64,000 nucleotides of DNA from an uncultured Bacteroidota bacterium (GTDB lineage Bacteria; Bacteroidota; Bacteroidia; Flavobacteriales; Flavobacteriaceae), in the NCBI GenBank assembly GCA_902583445.1, contig CACHVZ010000002.1, positions 1-64,000 of the forward strand. Reading direction: 5' to 3'. The notes under the pieces were generated by a model that did not search any database, was not told the DNA's origin, and saw only the letters and a list, made by a program, of their open reading frames with translations. The first letter of the stretch is position 1. Every line of letters begins with the position of its first letter. Positions 12,088-19,184 of this stretch are shown here, piece by piece. The translations under genes were made by a program, and so were the position numbers.

Positions 12088-12173
12088 GCTCGAGTGGTGG
12101 AATTGGTAGACACGTTGGACTTAAAATCCAATGAGCAGTAATGTTCGTGCGGGTTCAAGTCCCGCCTCGAGTA
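12088..12173 (+). tRNA. tRNA-Leu (TAA)
   Basis: Acceptor GCTCGAG/CTCGAGT (terminal G-U), anticodon loop CTTAAAA within TTGGACTTAAAATCCAA, long variable arm TGAGCAGTAATGTTCGT, T-arm GCGGGTTCAAGTCCCGC. Confidence 0.95.
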
Positions 12174-12180
12174 CTTAAGG

Positions 12181-12221
12181 AAATCGTAATAGACTATTTA
12201 ATAGTTTGTTACGGTTTTTTT
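12181..12221 (+). terminator. Rho-independent terminator after the tRNA pair
   Basis: CGTAATAGACTAT-TTTAA-ATAGTTTGTTACG hairpin (two G-U wobbles) followed by a run of T (GTTTTTTTATT). Confidence 0.8.
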
Positions 12222-12230
12222 ATTACCTAT

Positions 12231-12253
12231 TTGGCAACACATTGGCAACAAAA
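12231..12253 (+). repeat. TTGGCAACA doublet (left boundary copy)
   Basis: TTGGCAACACATTGGCAACAAAA: two TTGGCAACA units with 11-bp period; near-identical copy in the same orientation at 19033. Confidence 0.75.
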
Positions 12254-12268
12254 CCAAAAAAAATCTAC

Positions 12269-12955
12269 TTACTTAGTATAAATCGGACCCCCCGGGGTCA
12301 GTTTAAAATCCATTTTCTTTTTGAGGGAAGTGTCTAGTAAATGGTGTATAATCTTTTTGTTAGGGGATATGCCTGGAGTTGTATTAGTATTTGTCATTAT
12401 TAAGGGATATAATAAAGAAAATACACCGTAATTTCCATGATGTGAAATTGAGCATGATTTGGTCAATAAAATATTCTTGTAATAATACAAAGGAACCTTG
12501 TTTTTAGTTTTTTTTTGTTTAATTTCTTCAGCGGGAAATGCCGTTAAATCTTGTAATTTAGTTTTTATCATCCTATCTATAAATTTTGGCATTACAAGTT
12601 TAGAGTAAGCTTTGATAGTTATCTCTTTACTCGCCAATGTAAAAATATAGTCCTGTGTAATAATTGATGATGTATAGAATGTTTGATTTTTAAAATTTAC
12701 TAATCCCTCTTTTTCTGAAATTAATATGCAATTAAATTTTTTAGGAGCAAAAAAACGTACTTTATCTTGTTGAGTATAAACCTTATAGGCAGATTCTTTC
12801 ATACTCCAAAATTTCCAGACTAAAATAAAAGGATTTGGTGATTCAAAAATGAGTTTTTGCTCATGTTCAGTAAATTGCTTTTCTAAAAAACCACTTCGCT
12901 GCCAATTACTTTCTATTTTAGCAAGTGATAGATCTATGATATCGTTGCCAATCAA
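12269..12955 (-). CDS. 4'-phosphopantetheinyl transferase
   Basis: IGNDIIDLSLAK and FWSMKESAYKVY (GxDxxD...KESxYK motifs); overlaps the upstream ACP gene. Confidence 0.88.
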   Translation of the reverse strand: MIGNDIIDLSLAKIESNWQRSGFLEKQFTEHEQKLIFESPNPFILVWKFWSMKESAYKVYTQQDKVRFFAPKKFNCILISEKEGLVNFKNQTFYTSSIITQDYIFTLASKEITIKAYSKLVMPKFIDRMIKTKLQDLTAFPAEEIKQKKTKNKVPLYYYKNILLTKSCSISHHGNYGVFSLLYPLIMTNTNTTPGISPNKKIIHHLLDTSLKKKMDFKLTPGGPIYTK

Positions 12956-13206
12956 GATTTTGTTAATTTTGTTTCAATAATTTCTATTGCAGTTTTAACT
13001 GAAAGCATTTTCTCCATAGATTCGTTATCAATCTCAATATCAAATTCATCCTCTACATCAAGAATGATATCAACTAAATTAGCTGAGTTAATTTTTAAAT
13101 CATTGATAAAATCTGTTTCCTCTGAAAGATTCCTGAAAGCTTCTTGATCTTGAACATAGGGTTTTACGATTTTTTGCAGTGAAGTGATCAGATCTTTTCT
13201 ATTCAT
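12952..13206 (-). CDS. Acyl carrier protein
   Basis: ETDFINDLKINSANLVDIILDVEDEFDIEIDNESMEKMLSVKTAIEII; Ser at the phosphopantetheine position (NSANLVD). Confidence 0.88.
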   Translation of the reverse strand: MNRKDLITSLQKIVKPYVQDQEAFRNLSEETDFINDLKINSANLVDIILDVEDEFDIEIDNESMEKMLSVKTAIEIIETKLTKS

Positions 13207-13277
13207 TGATATAGTTTTTAGTAATTTTTATATTTTATTTTATCATTTTACAAGTAAACGCCAATAAAGTTATATTA

Positions 13278-14546
13278 TTAATATTTCTTAAAAATAATAC
13301 ATCCATTTACATCTCCAAAGCCAAAACTTGCTTTAGCAATGATGTTCAATTTTTTTGCTGTCGTTTTTGTTGGGATTTTTTCTTTTGAGATTAACTTTAA
13401 AATTTCTGGATGTATCTCCTCACAATTTATATTTGGAAAAACAAATTGATGTTTTAATTGTAGTACTGTTGCTACATTTTCAATAGATGCTGATGCTGCA
13501 AGACAATGTCCTACCATTGACTTTAATGAGTTTATCATTGGAAATTCTTTTCCTTTTCTTCCTAATGCTTTGGTCCAGCTTTCTATTTCTATGGGATCTT
13601 TAATCGTTGCTGTTAAATGTCCGTTGATTGCATCAATTTCTGTTCCTTTTATATTTGCATCTTTAATAGCATCCACAATACATCTCTGAACAGCTTCTGA
13701 ATTTGGAGCAGTCATTGTTCCTCCATTTCTTTGTCCACCAGAATTAATATTTCCTCCTAAAACTTCTGCATAAATAGTTGCTTTTCTTTTCAATGCGCTT
13801 TCTAAAGATTCTAAAACCAATGCTCCAGCACCACTTCCTGGTACGAACCCAGATGCTTCTGCACTCATTGGCTTTGACCCTTTTTCAGGTGTTTCGTTAT
13901 GCTTGTAAGTCATCACTCTCATCGCATCAAATCCGCCCCAAATGTATGCACCATCATCGCTACAACTACCCACTAACATTCTAGATGCTTTTCCAGATTG
14001 AATGCGCTCAAAGCCCATTAATAAAGCTTCTGTGCCTGTTGTACATGCAGATGAATTTGTTGTAACTTGATTTCCAAGTCCCAAGATTCCGCCTAAATAA
14101 GCGCTTATTCCACTTGCCATAGTTTGTACTACTACTGTACTGCCAAGACGTTTTACTTTATGATCATCTAACTTATAAATTGCTTCTCTAAATTTTTCTA
14201 TTCCAGAAGTCCCAGTTCCAAAAACAATTCCTGAATTATAATCAGTAGGTGAATTTTTGTCAATTTTAAATCCCGCATCTTTCCAGGCATCCATTCCTGC
14301 AATACAACCATATAAAATTCCAGCACTATCAAATCCACGCAATTGTAATGGCGTCAAGTATTGACTTTTCAATTCTTTAGAGACAGACGGAATCCCACCA
14401 ATACAACAAGAAAATTTTAAGTCCTTTAGTTTTTGATGAAATGTGATTCCAGACTTTCCTTTTTGGATGGCTTCTAAAAAATTGTCCAGCCCAATTGCAT
14501 TTGGAGCTACAATACCCATTCCAGTAATAACCACTCTAAGTTTCAT
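13278..14546 (-). CDS. Beta-ketoacyl-ACP synthase (KAS I/II-like)
   Basis: VVITGMGIVAPNAIG, NSSACTTGTEAL (Cys), NGHLTATIKDPIE (His), SLKSMVGHCLAAS (Lys/His), KASFGFGDVNGCIIF. Confidence 0.93.
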   Translation of the reverse strand: MKLRVVITGMGIVAPNAIGLDNFLEAIQKGKSGITFHQKLKDLKFSCCIGGIPSVSKELKSQYLTPLQLRGFDSAGILYGCIAGMDAWKDAGFKIDKNSPTDYNSGIVFGTGTSGIEKFREAIYKLDDHKVKRLGSTVVVQTMASGISAYLGGILGLGNQVTTNSSACTTGTEALLMGFERIQSGKASRMLVGSCSDDGAYIWGGFDAMRVMTYKHNETPEKGSKPMSAEASGFVPGSGAGALVLESLESALKRKATIYAEVLGGNINSGGQRNGGTMTAPNSEAVQRCIVDAIKDANIKGTEIDAINGHLTATIKDPIEIESWTKALGRKGKEFPMINSLKSMVGHCLAASASIENVATVLQLKHQFVFPNINCEEIHPEILKLISKEKIPTKTTAKKLNIIAKASFGFGDVNGCIIFKKY

Positions 14547-14988
14547 TATTCATTACTTTTAGCATCCCAGAAATCGTTCCTTTACACACCAACTCGTTCT
14601 TCTCATTAAATAACTGAACTTTACATTTTAGCTTGTTGAATCTAAAATATATTTTTTCTGAAACTACCTTGACACGTTCTTTAGGTTTAACAGGTAAAAA
14701 AAAATCTACTTCGCTATTTGAAAGTGCTATTTGTGGTCTTTCTATTTCAGAAAGAAACTTTTTTAATAAGTAAATCCCTAAACAGACCACTCCTATTTGT
14801 GCCATAACTTCAGTTAAAATAACACCAGGGGTTAAAGGATTATCTTTAAAATGACCTAAATAAAAATATTCATCATTTTTAAAAGTATAGTATCCCTCGG
14901 ATCGATCTTCGGATATGTAAGTTAATTCCTCTACAAACAAAAAAGGTGCTCGGTAAGGTAAAAGCTGTATTATAGTTTCTTTTTTCAA
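14536..14988 (-). CDS. 3-hydroxyacyl-ACP dehydratase (FabZ-like hotdog)
   Basis: IIQLLPYRAPFLFVEEL, YLGHFKDNPLTPGVILTEVMAQIG (catalytic His and Glu retained). Confidence 0.88.
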   Translation of the reverse strand: MKKETIIQLLPYRAPFLFVEELTYISEDRSEGYYTFKNDEYFYLGHFKDNPLTPGVILTEVMAQIGVVCLGIYLLKKFLSEIERPQIALSNSEVDFFLPVKPKERVKVVSEKIYFRFNKLKCKVQLFNEKNELVCKGTISGMLKVMNNET

Positions 14989-15059
14989 TTAATAAAAAAT
15001 CTATGTTAGTTTTACTTTTATTATCAACAGCTTAAAAATTTAAAATTGAAATAATTCTA

Positions 15060-15854
15060 TTAACTAATATGCTCTCCTCCATCCACAACTATAATAGTTC
15101 CATTAATCCAAGCAGCTTCGTCTTTTGATAATAAATATACAACATTAGCTACATCTTCAGGTAATGTTAATCTATCGAAAGGATTTCGTTCTAAAGAGTG
15201 TTTTTTTAATTTATTATTACCTGGAATCATTTGAAATGATGCTGTATCTGAAACTCCTGCTTGAATACAATTAGCTCTAATCCCAAAACGAGCAAATTCT
15301 AATGCAATATTTCTAGTAATAGCTTCTAATGTTACTTTTGCAGCAGATACCGCTGCATAATTTTTTAACGCTTTGCTGTTACCTTCACTTGTGAAACTAA
15401 CCACTCGCCCATCATCTGCAAAAAGTTTTGCTTCAAAAATAGCTTTCACCCAATCATATAAACTAATTCCCATTGCTTGTATAGTTAATTGAAAATCATC
15501 TGTTTGTAATATTGGTGAAGTATCTGAAACCATAGGCTTTAAATTTCCTTTGGCAACACTATGTACTAATATTTTTATTTTACCACCATCCAATTCTTCT
15601 TTTAAATTTTCAATCAAGTCTTCTCTCTTTTCCGTTTTAAAGGCATCCGTGTTGTAACTAATAAATTTTACTGACTCCTTTTTTATTTCTTTAAAATCTC
15701 TCTTTATTTGATCTAGTTGAGATCTAGAGTTTCTGTGAACAATACAAATATTCATTCCATGTTTTGCTAATTTTTTTGCAGTAGCTAAACCCAATCCACT
15801 TGACCCACCTATAATTAAAGCCCATTTTTTTTTGTTTTCAAATTCTTTTACCAT
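15060..15854 (-). CDS. SDR-family oxidoreductase, FabI/FabL-like enoyl-ACP reductase
   Basis: ALIIGGSSGLGLATAKKL, LVHSVAKGNL, Y-(x)6-K motif in NYAAVSAAKVTLEAITRNIALEFARFGIRANCIQAG. Confidence 0.82.
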   Translation of the reverse strand: MVKEFENKKKWALIIGGSSGLGLATAKKLAKHGMNICIVHRNSRSQLDQIKRDFKEIKKESVKFISYNTDAFKTEKREDLIENLKEELDGGKIKILVHSVAKGNLKPMVSDTSPILQTDDFQLTIQAMGISLYDWVKAIFEAKLFADDGRVVSFTSEGNSKALKNYAAVSAAKVTLEAITRNIALEFARFGIRANCIQAGVSDTASFQMIPGNNKLKKHSLERNPFDRLTLPEDVANVVYLLSKDEAAWINGTIIVVDGGEHIS

Positions 15855-16900
15855 TGTAATAATATTCTTTGTGCGGAAAATCCTGGTCCAAAACTAAGCA
15901 TCAGACCTTTCTCTCCTTTTTTTCTATCACCATCCATAAACCGTTCTAAAACATATAAAACGGTAGCACTTGACATGTTCCCATATAATCTTAAGACTTC
16001 TTTTGTATCATCTATATTTTTGCCTAATGTCTTAAATAGATCCTCGACAGTATTCACTATTTTTTTTCCACCAGGATGAAAAATTAAATGATTTATATCT
16101 TCGATTTTTAAATTATTTCTTTCTAAAAAAGGATAAATAATATTAGGAAAATGATTAGAAATTGTTTCAGGAACCCTTTTGTCTAAAATCATTTGCAGTC
16201 CTGTATTCACCAACTTAAAACCCATAATATCAATGGAATCGTAAAAATGATACATAGCTTCATCTCTAATTATAGGTCCTTCGTCTTCTTCAAAAGAAGA
16301 TAAAATAACACTAGCTGCACCGTCTCCAAAAATTGCAGCACTTACAATATTGGCCATAGAATAGTCTTCCATTTGAAATGTGGCGGTAGCTGCTTCAACA
16401 GAGACAATAGCAGCTCGTTTATTAGGATTAGATTTTAAAAAGTTTTTTGCATAAATAATTCCTGAAATTCCTGCTACACATCCCATTTCTGTTACCGGTA
16501 GCCTCACAATATCCTGTCTCATTTGCAAACTATTAATTAAATACGCATCTACCGAAGGAATCATAATTCCTGTACAACTCACTGTCACAATATAATCAAT
16601 ATCTGTCGTCTGTAATCTCGCTTTTTTTAGGGATTTTAATAATGATTGTTCTGCAAGTTTTGTTACTTCTTTAATATAAATATTGTTTTTTTCCTCAAAG
16701 GATGTATTTAAAAAAACTTCTTCAGCGTCCATAATAGAATAGCGTTTATCTACCCCAGCTCCTTCAAAAAGTTTTAAAACTTTTCTTTGAAACCTGCTCT
16801 CTTGCCCTTGCATCCATTGTTTTACAAATGGAATAATTTCCTTTGTTTCTTTAACGTACTTTGGCAGTTTTTTTGCTACAGATATTATTTTTACACTCAT
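15848..16900 (-). CDS. Type III polyketide synthase (chalcone/stilbene synthase superfamily)
   Basis: VTVSCTGIMIPSVD, VTEMGCVAGISGI (catalytic Cys), LIFHPGGKKIVN (His), RLYGNMSSATVLYVL (Asn), SFGPGFSAQRILLQW C-terminus. Confidence 0.93.
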   Translation of the reverse strand: MSVKIISVAKKLPKYVKETKEIIPFVKQWMQGQESRFQRKVLKLFEGAGVDKRYSIMDAEEVFLNTSFEEKNNIYIKEVTKLAEQSLLKSLKKARLQTTDIDYIVTVSCTGIMIPSVDAYLINSLQMRQDIVRLPVTEMGCVAGISGIIYAKNFLKSNPNKRAAIVSVEAATATFQMEDYSMANIVSAAIFGDGAASVILSSFEEDEGPIIRDEAMYHFYDSIDIMGFKLVNTGLQMILDKRVPETISNHFPNIIYPFLERNNLKIEDINHLIFHPGGKKIVNTVEDLFKTLGKNIDDTKEVLRLYGNMSSATVLYVLERFMDGDRKKGEKGLMLSFGPGFSAQRILLQW

Positions 16901-16927
16901 GATATTTCTAATGTAAATAATAGTTTT

Positions 16928-17650
16928 TTAATCAATAAAATCTTTTTTTAGAATCCATAAATATCGAAATGCCCATTTCCATTGGATTGAAAAATGAACT
17001 TTTATCTCTTTTGCAATATTTTCTAAATCTTTTCTTTTGAAGGCTCTTAAAATAGATGTTAATCCATCTTGTCTGACCATTTTATTTTTTATAAAAAATC
17101 CTATTAATTTAAAAAAATAGTAGGCTAATTTATGTCTATGTAAATCATTAACAACTACACCAATCGTCGCATTCTCTGTAGTTGTTTTAAGAAGTGATAT
17201 TATTTCCTCATTTTTAAAATGATGTAAAAAAAGGGTACATAAGACGACATCATATGATTGTTTTTTAAAATCTTCCGACAATACATTGACCATTTTAAAA
17301 CTAAGTTCTGAATACTTCTTTGATAATTCCTTTGCATACTCTACTGCTGCAAAATTTGCATCAATTCCAATGAGATTAAAAGAATACTTATTCTCTCTAC
17401 CAAACTTAGCAACATCACGTAAGATGTCACCATTTCCACATCCTAAATCTACAATCGTAATTATCTTGTTTTTTGACTGATTTTTAATGAGTTTTTTAAG
17501 CCCTTTAATTGTTACTGAATTACCACCCAAGAACCTATTAATGATTTCTAGCTTGTCAAGGGTGTCTCTTAAAAGAGCTCCTTGCATTGTAAAATCATCC
17601 ATAATTTCCATTTTAGAGGATCGATGTGAAGTATCAACTAAAAAACTCAT
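16928..17650 (-). CDS. Class I SAM-dependent methyltransferase
   Basis: ITIVDLGCGNGDILRDVA (motif I), NLIGIDANFAAVEYAKE, YDVVLCTLFLHHF; N-terminal EIMDDFTMQGALLRDTLDKLEIINRFLGG resembles T3PKS-cluster methyltransferases. Confidence 0.88.
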   Translation of the reverse strand: MSFLVDTSHRSSKMEIMDDFTMQGALLRDTLDKLEIINRFLGGNSVTIKGLKKLIKNQSKNKIITIVDLGCGNGDILRDVAKFGRENKYSFNLIGIDANFAAVEYAKELSKKYSELSFKMVNVLSEDFKKQSYDVVLCTLFLHHFKNEEIISLLKTTTENATIGVVVNDLHRHKLAYYFFKLIGFFIKNKMVRQDGLTSILRAFKRKDLENIAKEIKVHFSIQWKWAFRYLWILKKDFID

Positions 17651-18738
17651 ATTGATTTGATGTATTTTCCATGAGTAAATCGAATAATTTTAGGTAATAA
17701 AAAAGGAATTATTTTTAAAATTGAATAAGCAATTTGAGAAACAGCTTGATTTCTAAACATCCTAGCAATAAAATGTCCAGTCTTTAATCGTGTTTTAAAC
17801 TCATTATTCCAATCTTCAAAATATTGTTTTTCCAAACCTTCTCTTGTTTTTATTTCTCCATTTAAAAACTGTATTATTCGAATACTTGCTAATCTTGCAC
17901 TATTAATAGCCATTCCCATTCCATTTCCACATAACGGATGAATCATCCCTGCAGTATCTCCACACATTATGATATGATTCTCCACGGGTTTTTTAGTTTC
18001 AAAGGAAATTTGACTTATTGTAAGTGGTTTTTTAAATACAGAATCAGACTCCTCAAATATTTTTTTTAAGTGCTTGTTTTTGTAGACTACTTGCTGCTGA
18101 AAATCTGAAATATTTTTATGTTTTTTAAATAAATTATATTCAGTAATGTAACATAAATTTATCGAATTGTTTTCTACTTTTGACACCCCGCAATAACCCC
18201 CTTTAAAATTATGTAGTGCTATAAGGTTTTCTGGAAAATCTCCTTTTACATGAATTTTAACTGCTAGGTATGGTGATTTTTTTTTAATGAAGTTTCTATT
18301 CATCTTAAAATCTAATAATGACCTTTTACCAAAAGCGCCAATAGTAATTTTACTTTGAAAAGATTTTGAATCTTTTGTTTGAATTGTAAAAACCCCTTTA
18401 TTAAAAATTACAGAGTTTACTGAGTCTTTTAAAACTTTAACTCCGTTAGATTCTGCTTTATTTAATAATAATTTATCAAAAAAATAGCGGCTCATTCCAA
18501 AACCTCCTAAAGGTAAGTTACCCTTAATTAGATTACCTTTTGCAGTACTAACTTGCACTTTACTGATCTTCTTTGCTCCCTCTTTTATTGGATCAATCCC
18601 TAAATAGTTTAAATAGGGAATTACTTCATTAGATATATACTCTCCGCATACTTTATGATTTGGATAGGAGTTTTTTTCAATAAGTAAAACACGATGGTTG
18701 AATTTTGACAAATGGATGGCATTTGTTAACCCTGCCAA
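17647..18738 (-). CDS. NAD(P)/FAD-dependent oxidoreductase (geranylgeranyl-reductase-like); true N-terminus extends upstream of 18738
   Basis: Open frame upstream of the TTG at 18738 gives KIIKTFDVIIIGGGLAGLTNAIHL (GxGxxG); also KVCGEYISNEV, IMCGDTAGMIHPLCGNGMGMAINSARLA. Confidence 0.88.
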   Translation of the reverse strand: MAGLTNAIHLSKFNHRVLLIEKNSYPNHKVCGEYISNEVIPYLNYLGIDPIKEGAKKISKVQVSTAKGNLIKGNLPLGGFGMSRYFFDKLLLNKAESNGVKVLKDSVNSVIFNKGVFTIQTKDSKSFQSKITIGAFGKRSLLDFKMNRNFIKKKSPYLAVKIHVKGDFPENLIALHNFKGGYCGVSKVENNSINLCYITEYNLFKKHKNISDFQQQVVYKNKHLKKIFEESDSVFKKPLTISQISFETKKPVENHIIMCGDTAGMIHPLCGNGMGMAINSARLASIRIIQFLNGEIKTREGLEKQYFEDWNNEFKTRLKTGHFIARMFRNQAVSQIAYSILKIIPFLLPKIIRFTHGKYIKSI

Positions 18739-18778
18739 TCCACCACCAATTATTATTACATCAAAAGTTTTTATGATC

Positions 18779-19015
18779 TTAAAATTTATTTAATTTATCA
18801 GGAATAAACTTACTTATTGAATCAAGATTATTGTTTAGTGATTTAAGAAGAGGGTCCTTCGGTTTAGCTCTCATTTTTGACTTGCTCCAATTCGAAGGAT
18901 TAACAGTTAATCCTGTTCTAGCTGAGATTACTTTAGAATTAGGAGGTCTTAAGTATACATAAATACTAACCTGCTTATTTTCTTTTGACTTAAGTCTGTA
19001 ACCAATTGATGACAT
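18779..19015 (-). pseudogene. N-terminal (Arm DNA-binding) fragment of a Bacteroidetes tyrosine recombinase/integrase
   Basis: YRLKSKENKQVSIYVYLRPPNSKVISARTGLTVNPSNWSKSKMRAKPKDPLLKSLNNNLDSI matches the arm-binding domain pattern (yISTGikVnPk.Wd...); no catalytic R..HxxR..Y domain follows. Confidence 0.78.
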
Positions 19016-19032
19016 AGAATAAAATTATATAA

Positions 19033-19054
19033 TTGGCAACATATTGGCAACAAA
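19033..19054 (+). repeat. TTGGCAACA doublet (right boundary copy)
   Basis: TTGGCAACATATTGGCAACAAA; one mismatch to the copy at 12231, located just upstream of the integrase fragment start. Confidence 0.75.
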
Positions 19055-19184
19055 TAAAGCAATTTTATAACATATTATGAATGTTTATTTAATATTAAGT
19101 AAATACTAACAATTTTTAAATTTTTCAAAGTGAACTTTATAAAACATAAAAAAACATTCCACTGATTTCTTTAGAACCGAGTTA

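Follow-up and report, generated by a model that had tools for sequence, protein, structure and literature searches.

An eight-gene type III polyketide synthase operon of marine flavobacteria with discrete fatty-acid synthesis genes, inserted as an island at a tRNA-Leu gene

Our study identified, in the 64,000-nucleotide stretch of flavobacterial DNA analysed here (the window), an operon of eight genes that probably encodes a self-contained pathway to a phenolic or quinone lipid, in which the operon's own acyl-ACP supply would feed a type III polyketide synthase (T3PKS), followed by methylation and flavin-dependent tailoring. Dozens of marine flavobacteria keep these eight genes as one set; in the small genome of the ocean bacterium studied here, the set stands as an insertion next to a tRNA gene.

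Gene content and active sites

ORF calls place the eight genes at 12269-18780 of the minus strand, with overlaps or gaps of at most 72 bp, transcribed in the order FAD enzyme, SAM methyltransferase, T3PKS, FabL-type reductase, FabZ-like dehydratase, FabF-like ketosynthase, acyl carrier protein (ACP) and phosphopantetheinyl transferase (PPTase). The preliminary description had given eight minus-strand genes in this order, which ORF calls, domains and catalytic residues confirm; its account of the genes stands for all eight and needs correction at the operon ends, where the FAD start codon is absent and the PPTase is 44 codons overlong.

17650-18780, minus: FAD-dependent oxidoreductase of the GG-reductase/QhpG-like monooxygenase superfamily (GG-red-SF 88.6 bits; canonical start codon lost)
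16928-17650, minus: SAM-dependent methyltransferase (PRK06202 145.8 bits)
15848-16900, minus: type III polyketide synthase (Chal_sti_synt N and C; C141/H275/N308)
15060-15854, minus: SDR enoyl-ACP reductase, FabL type (FabL 155.6 bits; Y166-x6-K173)
14536-14988, minus: FabZ-like 3-hydroxyacyl-ACP dehydratase (FabA domain, FabZ models; H46/E60)
13278-14546, minus: FabF-like ketosynthase (FabF 264 bits; C168/H310/K342/H347)
12952-13206, minus: dedicated acyl carrier protein (ACP models; PPant Ser41)
12269-12955, minus: 4'-phosphopantetheinyl transferase (ACPS 44.5 bits; C-terminal read-through)

Pfam and NCBIfam agree with these names: ACPS-type PPTase, PP-binding ACP, ketoacyl synthase and FabA/FabZ-like dehydratase, and, for the other four, enoyl-reductase SDR, chalcone/stilbene synthase, class I methyltransferase and a flavoprotein of the geranylgeranyl-reductase/monooxygenase type. 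FabL is the best NCBIfam model for the SDR, whose best PDB match is Bacillus FabL (3oic). The active sites are intact across orthologues: the T3PKS triad Cys141/His275/Asn308 is invariant (93/93), and the SDR residues S156, Y166 and K173 (71/71), dehydratase H46/E60 (89/89), ketosynthase C168/H310/K342/H347 (85/85) and ACP Ser41 (85/85) are all kept. The ACP serine lies in an N-S-A motif (N-S-S in one orthologue), whereas the primary ACP of the same genome has a DSL motif; the primary FabF, 32% identical to the operon ketosynthase, is on another contig and adjoins the DSL-type ACP. The supply module is distinct from the primary fatty-acid synthase. There is no ketoreductase gene among the operon's eight, and a promoter scan found no excess over shuffles with a sigma-70 model, which says little for Bacteroidota promoters.

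The best NCBIfam model for the T3PKS is DpgA, but its 167 bits lie far from the cut-off of 425 and this identity was rejected; a crotonase/hydratase gene is expected with the dpg kind, and none is present among the eight. The solved structures closest to the T3PKS by sequence and fold are the alkylpyrone synthase Pks11 and then, almost as close, the resorcinol former CylI, both of which act on acyl chains that are long or carrier-bound. Three residues ahead of the catalytic His, 93/93 orthologues have Leu, in contrast to the Trp of chalcone synthase, Pks11, CylI and the Sphingobium enzyme; the mode of ring closure therefore cannot be read from the T3PKS sequence. We also dropped Azotobacter ArsB Trp281 as a means of calling resorcinol or pyrone, since ArsB and ArsC are absent among the PDB matches listed and the pyrone maker Pks11 likewise carries Trp three residues ahead of the catalytic His.

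The flavoenzyme scores 65.3 bits with QhpG, behind GG-red-SF, and its AlphaFold model (pLDDT 87.5) finds flavin halogenases and monooxygenases as best Foldseek matches, within a fold common to reductases, hydroxylases and halogenases. A halogenase was considered on the strength of these nearest solved structures, but was rejected because the WxWxIP motif is missing from all 88 orthologues.

Conservation and comparison with known systems

Gene order was counted in 63 GTDB loci with enough flank. All eight genes occur in the same order on one strand in 47/63, and 14/63 show this order minus the reductase; dehydratase, ketosynthase, ACP and PPTase lie in order with the T3PKS in 61/63. About a fifth of carriers do without the enoyl reductase and offer natural tests of its role. 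The operon is also retained in three carriers outside the family, of which two lack the reductase. The genes are under purifying selection (dN/dS 0.02-0.23 against four relatives; computed for two of the four in the case of the PPTase), and this, together with the order kept in 61 loci, excludes a chance arrangement. In addition, the distances of the genes correlate across loci when the kinship of species is ignored (T3PKS-ketosynthase r=0.86, ketosynthase-FAD r=0.90).

The operon T3PKS forms its own clade, present in 26 of 297 sampled genomes of the phylum, mostly of one family, and Bps-type T3PKSs, the common type elsewhere in sampled Bacteroidota, fall in a separate clade. Among 16 remoter Bacteroidota T3PKSs checked (at most 38% identity), none has any of the seven partner genes nearby, and 15 stand beside a BpsB-like ICMT. 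The earlier proposal, which joins the fatty-acyl module, ACP and PPTase to the T3PKS, is borne out by their co-occurrence across genera and their absence around other Bacteroidota T3PKSs; supply genes standing apart from the T3PKS in relatives, the finding it had named against itself, were looked for, and the 61 loci keep them together.

Two kinds of precedent are already known. T3PKS-methyltransferase-FAD operons (srs, pkq, hid) lead to alkylquinones, with methylation and oxidation converting the resorcinol into an alkylbenzoquinone (PMC9927152), or to alkylresorcinol/hierridin lipids (PMC10896814, PMC8086630); in Azotobacter ars, T3PKSs are fed by a dedicated fatty-acid synthase plus PPTase (PMC4824345). 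As in our operon, a methyltransferase and a flavin oxidoreductase adjoin the T3PKS in srsABC (S. griseus) and pkqABC (mycobacteria, Streptomyces); compared by description, these differ in the order T3PKS-methyltransferase-oxidoreductase, and no ketosynthase, dehydratase, enoyl reductase, ACP or PPTase is described. The cyanobacterial hidABC and a planctomycete cluster likewise form one operon, in which the tailoring genes precede the T3PKS, and yield alkylresorcinol products (PMC10896814, PMC8086630), but, again by description, have three genes, the order methyltransferase-oxidoreductase-T3PKS rather than FAD-methyltransferase-T3PKS, and presumed acyl-CoA priming.

The parallel with srs drawn in the preliminary description, here extended to pkq and hid, survives at the family level only. 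The operon has a Cys-His-Asn T3PKS and, next to it, a SAM methyltransferase that belongs to the trio family: PRK06202 is the top model for it and for the T3PKS-linked Sphingobium trio methyltransferase (133 bits), and the domain search makes it a class I enzyme, not a BpsB-like ICMT. The flavoenzyme may be a ring-oxidising counterpart of the trio flavoenzyme: the top models are the same for both, but its closest plasmid homologues are Bacteroidota proteins away from a T3PKS. However, the T3PKS is not orthologous to the trio enzymes, falling outside the clade of the four included in a tree that lacks SrsA, PkqA and HidC and has long deep branches and an unreliable root.

The ars likeness lies in fatty-acid synthesis genes and a PPTase co-inherited with the T3PKS (61/63 loci); arsABCD of Azotobacter vinelandii also has T3PKSs beside such genes (PMC4824345), but with the single-protein synthase ArsA in place of discrete enzymes, two T3PKSs, and no methyltransferase or flavoenzyme. 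In the CylI system (cylindrocyclophanes), a carrier-line chain from a free-standing ACP is passed to the T3PKS (PMC8086630), as proposed for our operon, with type I PKS modules, an AMP-binding enzyme and a halogenase in place of the ketosynthase, dehydratase and enoyl reductase. Plasmid clusters of Sphingobium (pKN1) and Novosphingobium (pLA3), for which we found no characterisation in the literature, have a discrete ACP and ketosynthase beside the T3PKS and an FAD enzyme, with the methyltransferase adjacent (pKN1) or nearby (pLA3); they lack dehydratase, enoyl reductase and PPTase, their proteins are 24-33% identical, and their T3PKS is of another clade. The bpsAB-type alkylpyrone operons share a T3PKS and a methyltransferase with the window operon, but the methyltransferase is of ICMT type, there is no fatty-acid synthesis module, and the T3PKS is at most 38% identical. 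What differs here is a supply module made of discrete type II enzymes, of which the sphingomonad plasmids hold a simpler version.

The island at tRNA-Leu

At the 3' end of a tRNA-Leu gene, the operon makes up a 7.0-kb insert that a 95.5%-identical relative lacks; homology to G008, a relative with the empty site, stops exactly at 12174 and restarts at 19182.

12088-12174, plus: tRNA-Leu(TAA), its 3' end the insertion point (ARAGORN)
12222-12252, plus: direct repeat, tRNA side, containing TTGGCAACACATTGGCAAC
18779-19015, minus: 78-aa N-terminal fragment, tyrosine-integrase-like (Arm-DNA-bind_5, PF17293, 25.1 bits, cut-off 22.6)
19024-19054, plus: direct repeat, distal side, containing TTGGCAACATATTGGCAAC

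The two repeat copies are 87% identical over 31 nt, with a spacing of 6802. Two marks of a tRNA-targeted integrative element, insertion at a tRNA 3' end and an empty site in a relative, are present; no intact integrase was found at the island, the Arm-domain fragment being the only trace, and its stop overlaps the FAD-gene junction. The FAD gene has no ATG, GTG or TTG upstream of its nucleotide-binding motif, and the TTG that starts most close orthologues reads TTT in the window (18783-18781). At the other end, PPTase homology to 184-aa orthologues stops near 12404, and the gene extends 44 codons beyond their stop as read-through past the junction. The insertion appears to have removed both the start codon of the FAD gene, whose translation may be impaired as a result, and the stop codon of the PPTase.

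These damaged ends would fit decaying cargo, with the pathway halting at a methylated resorcinol or silent in the window genome: TTT stands at the junction, the upstream frame lacks a standard start and the PPTase has lost its stop. However, internal stops are absent and dN/dS is low in every gene computed; ATA or ATC starts or readthrough are possible, and TTT could be a single-base error of a draft genome. We consider such decay unlikely.

The operon as a tRNA-Leu island with both terminal genes damaged is new here. Neither this island status nor the end damage nor the dispensable enoyl reductase figured in the preliminary description.

Proposed pathway and its alternatives

In the pathway that we favour, the PPTase would activate the dedicated ACP, and chain elongation on this ACP would fall to the FabF-like ketosynthase, the FabZ-like dehydratase and the FabL-type enoyl reductase, together with a ketoreductase of the host cell. 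The T3PKS would use this chain as starter, extend it with malonyl units and cyclise it, most likely to a 5-alkylresorcinol. Methylation of the ring by the methyltransferase and its hydroxylation or oxidation by the flavin enzyme would then give a methylated alkyl-hydroquinone or -quinone lipid. The window genome would have received the operon as the 7.0-kb island. This pathway is suggested by the conserved order, the partner-free remoter T3PKSs, the distance correlations, the invariant residues, dN/dS, the likeness to Pks11 and CylI, and the precedents. Points against it are the position of the T3PKS outside the trio clade, the Leu three residues ahead of the catalytic His and the fold ambiguity of the FAD enzyme.

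It is also conceivable that the T3PKS closes a 4-hydroxy-2-pyrone, which the methyltransferase turns into a methyl ether while the flavoenzyme oxidises the side chain, the architecture being unchanged. Pks11 as nearest solved enzyme, the Bps-like T3PKSs with ICMT in other Bacteroidota and Leu in place of Trp speak for a pyrone; on the other hand, CylI is almost equally close, the methyltransferase is of the T3PKS-trio family rather than a BpsB-type ICMT, and a ring-oxidising flavoenzyme suits a phenol better, which leaves the pyrone improbable. Still less probable is priming by ordinary acyl-CoA, the ACP module making a second chain attached later or destined for a separate lipid: acyl-CoA use without need of an ACP is presumed for planctomycete T3PKSs that likewise have both tailoring genes as neighbours (PMC10896814), which counts against our model, and no acyl-CoA ligase is necessary if host pools serve, but no acyltransferase able to attach a second chain is found among the eight conserved genes, and ketosynthase and T3PKS distances correlate strongly.

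For the phenolic or quinone lipid, we found no product isolated or described for this gene set in a literature search mostly of papers outside subscription. A broader, tentative reading, which we rate as doubtful, is that this could be the first recognised T3PKS pathway family supplied by a discrete type II fatty-acid module of its own. On this reading, its product in marine flavobacteria would be an alkyl- or alkenylquinone lipid new to the literature, and the saturation of the side chain would depend on whether the FabL-type gene is there. The lipid would act as a second carrier of electrons or protect the membrane, and even a genome of about 1 Mb would gain it by tRNA-targeted transfer.

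In an antiSMASH survey of Flavobacteriaceae, T3PKS ranked second in frequency among the cluster classes, with 9% of clusters, and we found no product named for it there (PMC7440613). Our results suggest that a large share of these clusters is one conserved eight-gene pathway, now separable from Bps-type pyrone loci. Its culturable carriers include Polaribacter, Winogradskyella, Gelidibacter, Psychroserpens, Tenacibaculum and Aequorivita.

Conservation of the eight-gene operon

ORF listing and family searches confirmed the eight co-directional genes of the preliminary description, in the order it gave, with neighbouring genes separated or overlapping by at most 72 bp:

12269-18780, minus strand: FAD enzyme, methyltransferase (MT), T3PKS, FabL-type SDR, FabZ-like dehydratase (DH), FabF-like ketosynthase (KS), ACP and PPTase, in transcription order

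Active-site residues of operon enzymes in the orthologue alignments
T3PKS: catalytic C141/H275/N308
KS: catalytic C168/H310/K342/H347
DH: catalytic H46/E60
SDR: S156, Y166, K173
ACP: S41

The expected catalytic residues are fully conserved in alignments of up to 93 orthologues, including the Cys-His-Asn triad that had been read in the T3PKS. The SDR, described earlier as FabI/FabL-like, indeed carries the Tyr-x6-Lys motif of these enzymes, and among solved structures it matches Bacillus FabL (3oic) best. The T3PKS structure model (pLDDT 77, built from nine rows only) is closest to Pks11 and CylI, and that of the FAD enzyme (pLDDT 87.5) to flavin halogenases, hydroxylases and geranylgeranyl-reductase-like proteins; the FAD enzyme lacks WxWxIP, which speaks against a halogenase.

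A GTDB scan with a T3PKS alignment gave at least 579 confirmed stretches, from which the best 80 loci were retained. Among the 63 of these best 80 with sufficient flank, all eight genes occur in the same order on one strand in 47, and 14 keep this order without the SDR, including Winogradskyella, where a 13-bp gap occupies its position. DH, KS, ACP and PPTase follow in order in 61 of the 63 loci, so that the claimed co-occurrence of FAS-like genes with the T3PKS holds; the finding is real and the operon architecture is conserved. In five SDR-less Polaribacter loci (L043, L047, L053, L067 and L068), a 186-187-aa ORF between T3PKS and DH looks by eye like a REP-associated (RAYT-like) transposase. 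In addition, L092 and L095 carry a second methyltransferase-like gene between ACP and PPTase, which suggests extra methylation.

A T3PKS below 1e-60 was present in 44 of 297 sampled genomes of the phylum; 26 of them score 7e-188 or better, the next best being 2e-74. These 26 comprise 23 genomes of the window's own family and three from two other families (L155-L157), which retain the operon, two of them without the SDR. In 16 remoter Bacteroidota loci (L139-L154) the other seven genes are all absent, and a BpsB-like isoprenylcysteine methyltransferase gene adjoins the T3PKS in 15; Bacteroidota therefore hold at least two separate T3PKS systems.

Against four relatives, dN/dS is 0.02-0.23 for every gene where computable (the PPTase gave no value in two comparisons). 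Gene-to-gene correlations of pairwise distance, uncorrected for the species tree (0.86 for T3PKS-KS, 0.90 for KS-FAD), are evidence of co-inheritance, not contact.

The acyl module and known T3PKS systems

The operon ACP has the motif N-S-A, whereas the genome's primary ACP has D-S-L; the primary FabF adjoins the latter on a different contig and is 32% identical to the operon KS. Judged from sequence, a module that would feed the T3PKS is genetically well supported. If it elongates chains, a host ketoreductase would be needed, because none is encoded among the operon genes; the genome has several further SDR genes.

Plasmids of Falsirhodobacter, Paracoccus, Psychrobacter and Deinococcus carry a T3PKS, a methyltransferase and an FAD enzyme as a trio. 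Trios described in the literature make alkylbenzoquinones, which serve as electron carriers (PMC9927152), or alkylresorcinols (PMC10896814). In the ars operon, T3PKSs are fed by a fatty-acid synthase dedicated to them, together with a PPTase (PMC4824345). In its gene content, the flavobacterial operon unites the srs-like trio design with the ars-like one, the latter in the form of a discrete module, as had been proposed. Sphingobium pKN1 and Novosphingobium pLA3 have ACP and KS directly upstream of the trio genes (ACP-KS-T3PKS-(MT)-FAD; L197 3489-7808, L234 3416-7059), apparently a separate solution to ACP supply. The window and Sphingobium methyltransferases share their best model, as do the two FAD enzymes; the window T3PKS falls outside the trio T3PKS clade in a tree with long deep branches and an unreliable root.

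An island at tRNA-Leu(TAA)

Of the 25 genus genomes, three have the operon. G008, a relative with an empty site, is 95.5% identical to the window on either side; its match stops with the final base of tRNA-Leu(TAA) at 12174 and restarts at 19182, with 24 bp intervening in G008, so that the 7.0-kb insert starts exactly at the tRNA 3' end. The insert holds TTGGCAACAYATTGGCAAC in two copies, as well as an Arm-domain integrase gene truncated to its first 78 codons. The junctions fall at the operon's two ends, which costs the FAD gene its start codon and the PPTase gene its stop: at 18781-18783, the junction with the integrase fragment, the window has TTT versus TTG in most close relatives, and the PPTase reads through 44 codons into the island flank (12269-12404).

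In G005 the operon occurs without any tested flanking gene of the window's locus alongside, and in G006, where the contig ends within the operon, these genes were not found on the examined flank. The tRNA-Leu(TAA) 3' end is a hot spot: compared with window 12175-19181, related genomes (L183-L191) are empty there or, as in other members of the genus, carry different genes, such as a luciferase-like oxidoreductase with a transporter, and peptidase and methylase-like genes (named by eye). Among L229-L233, the same element end, containing TTGGCAAC, recurs just past tRNA-Leu(CAA) in three genomes (G003, G004 and G024) and past tRNA-Leu(TAA) in a fourth (G022), which suggests a family of tRNA-Leu-targeting elements.
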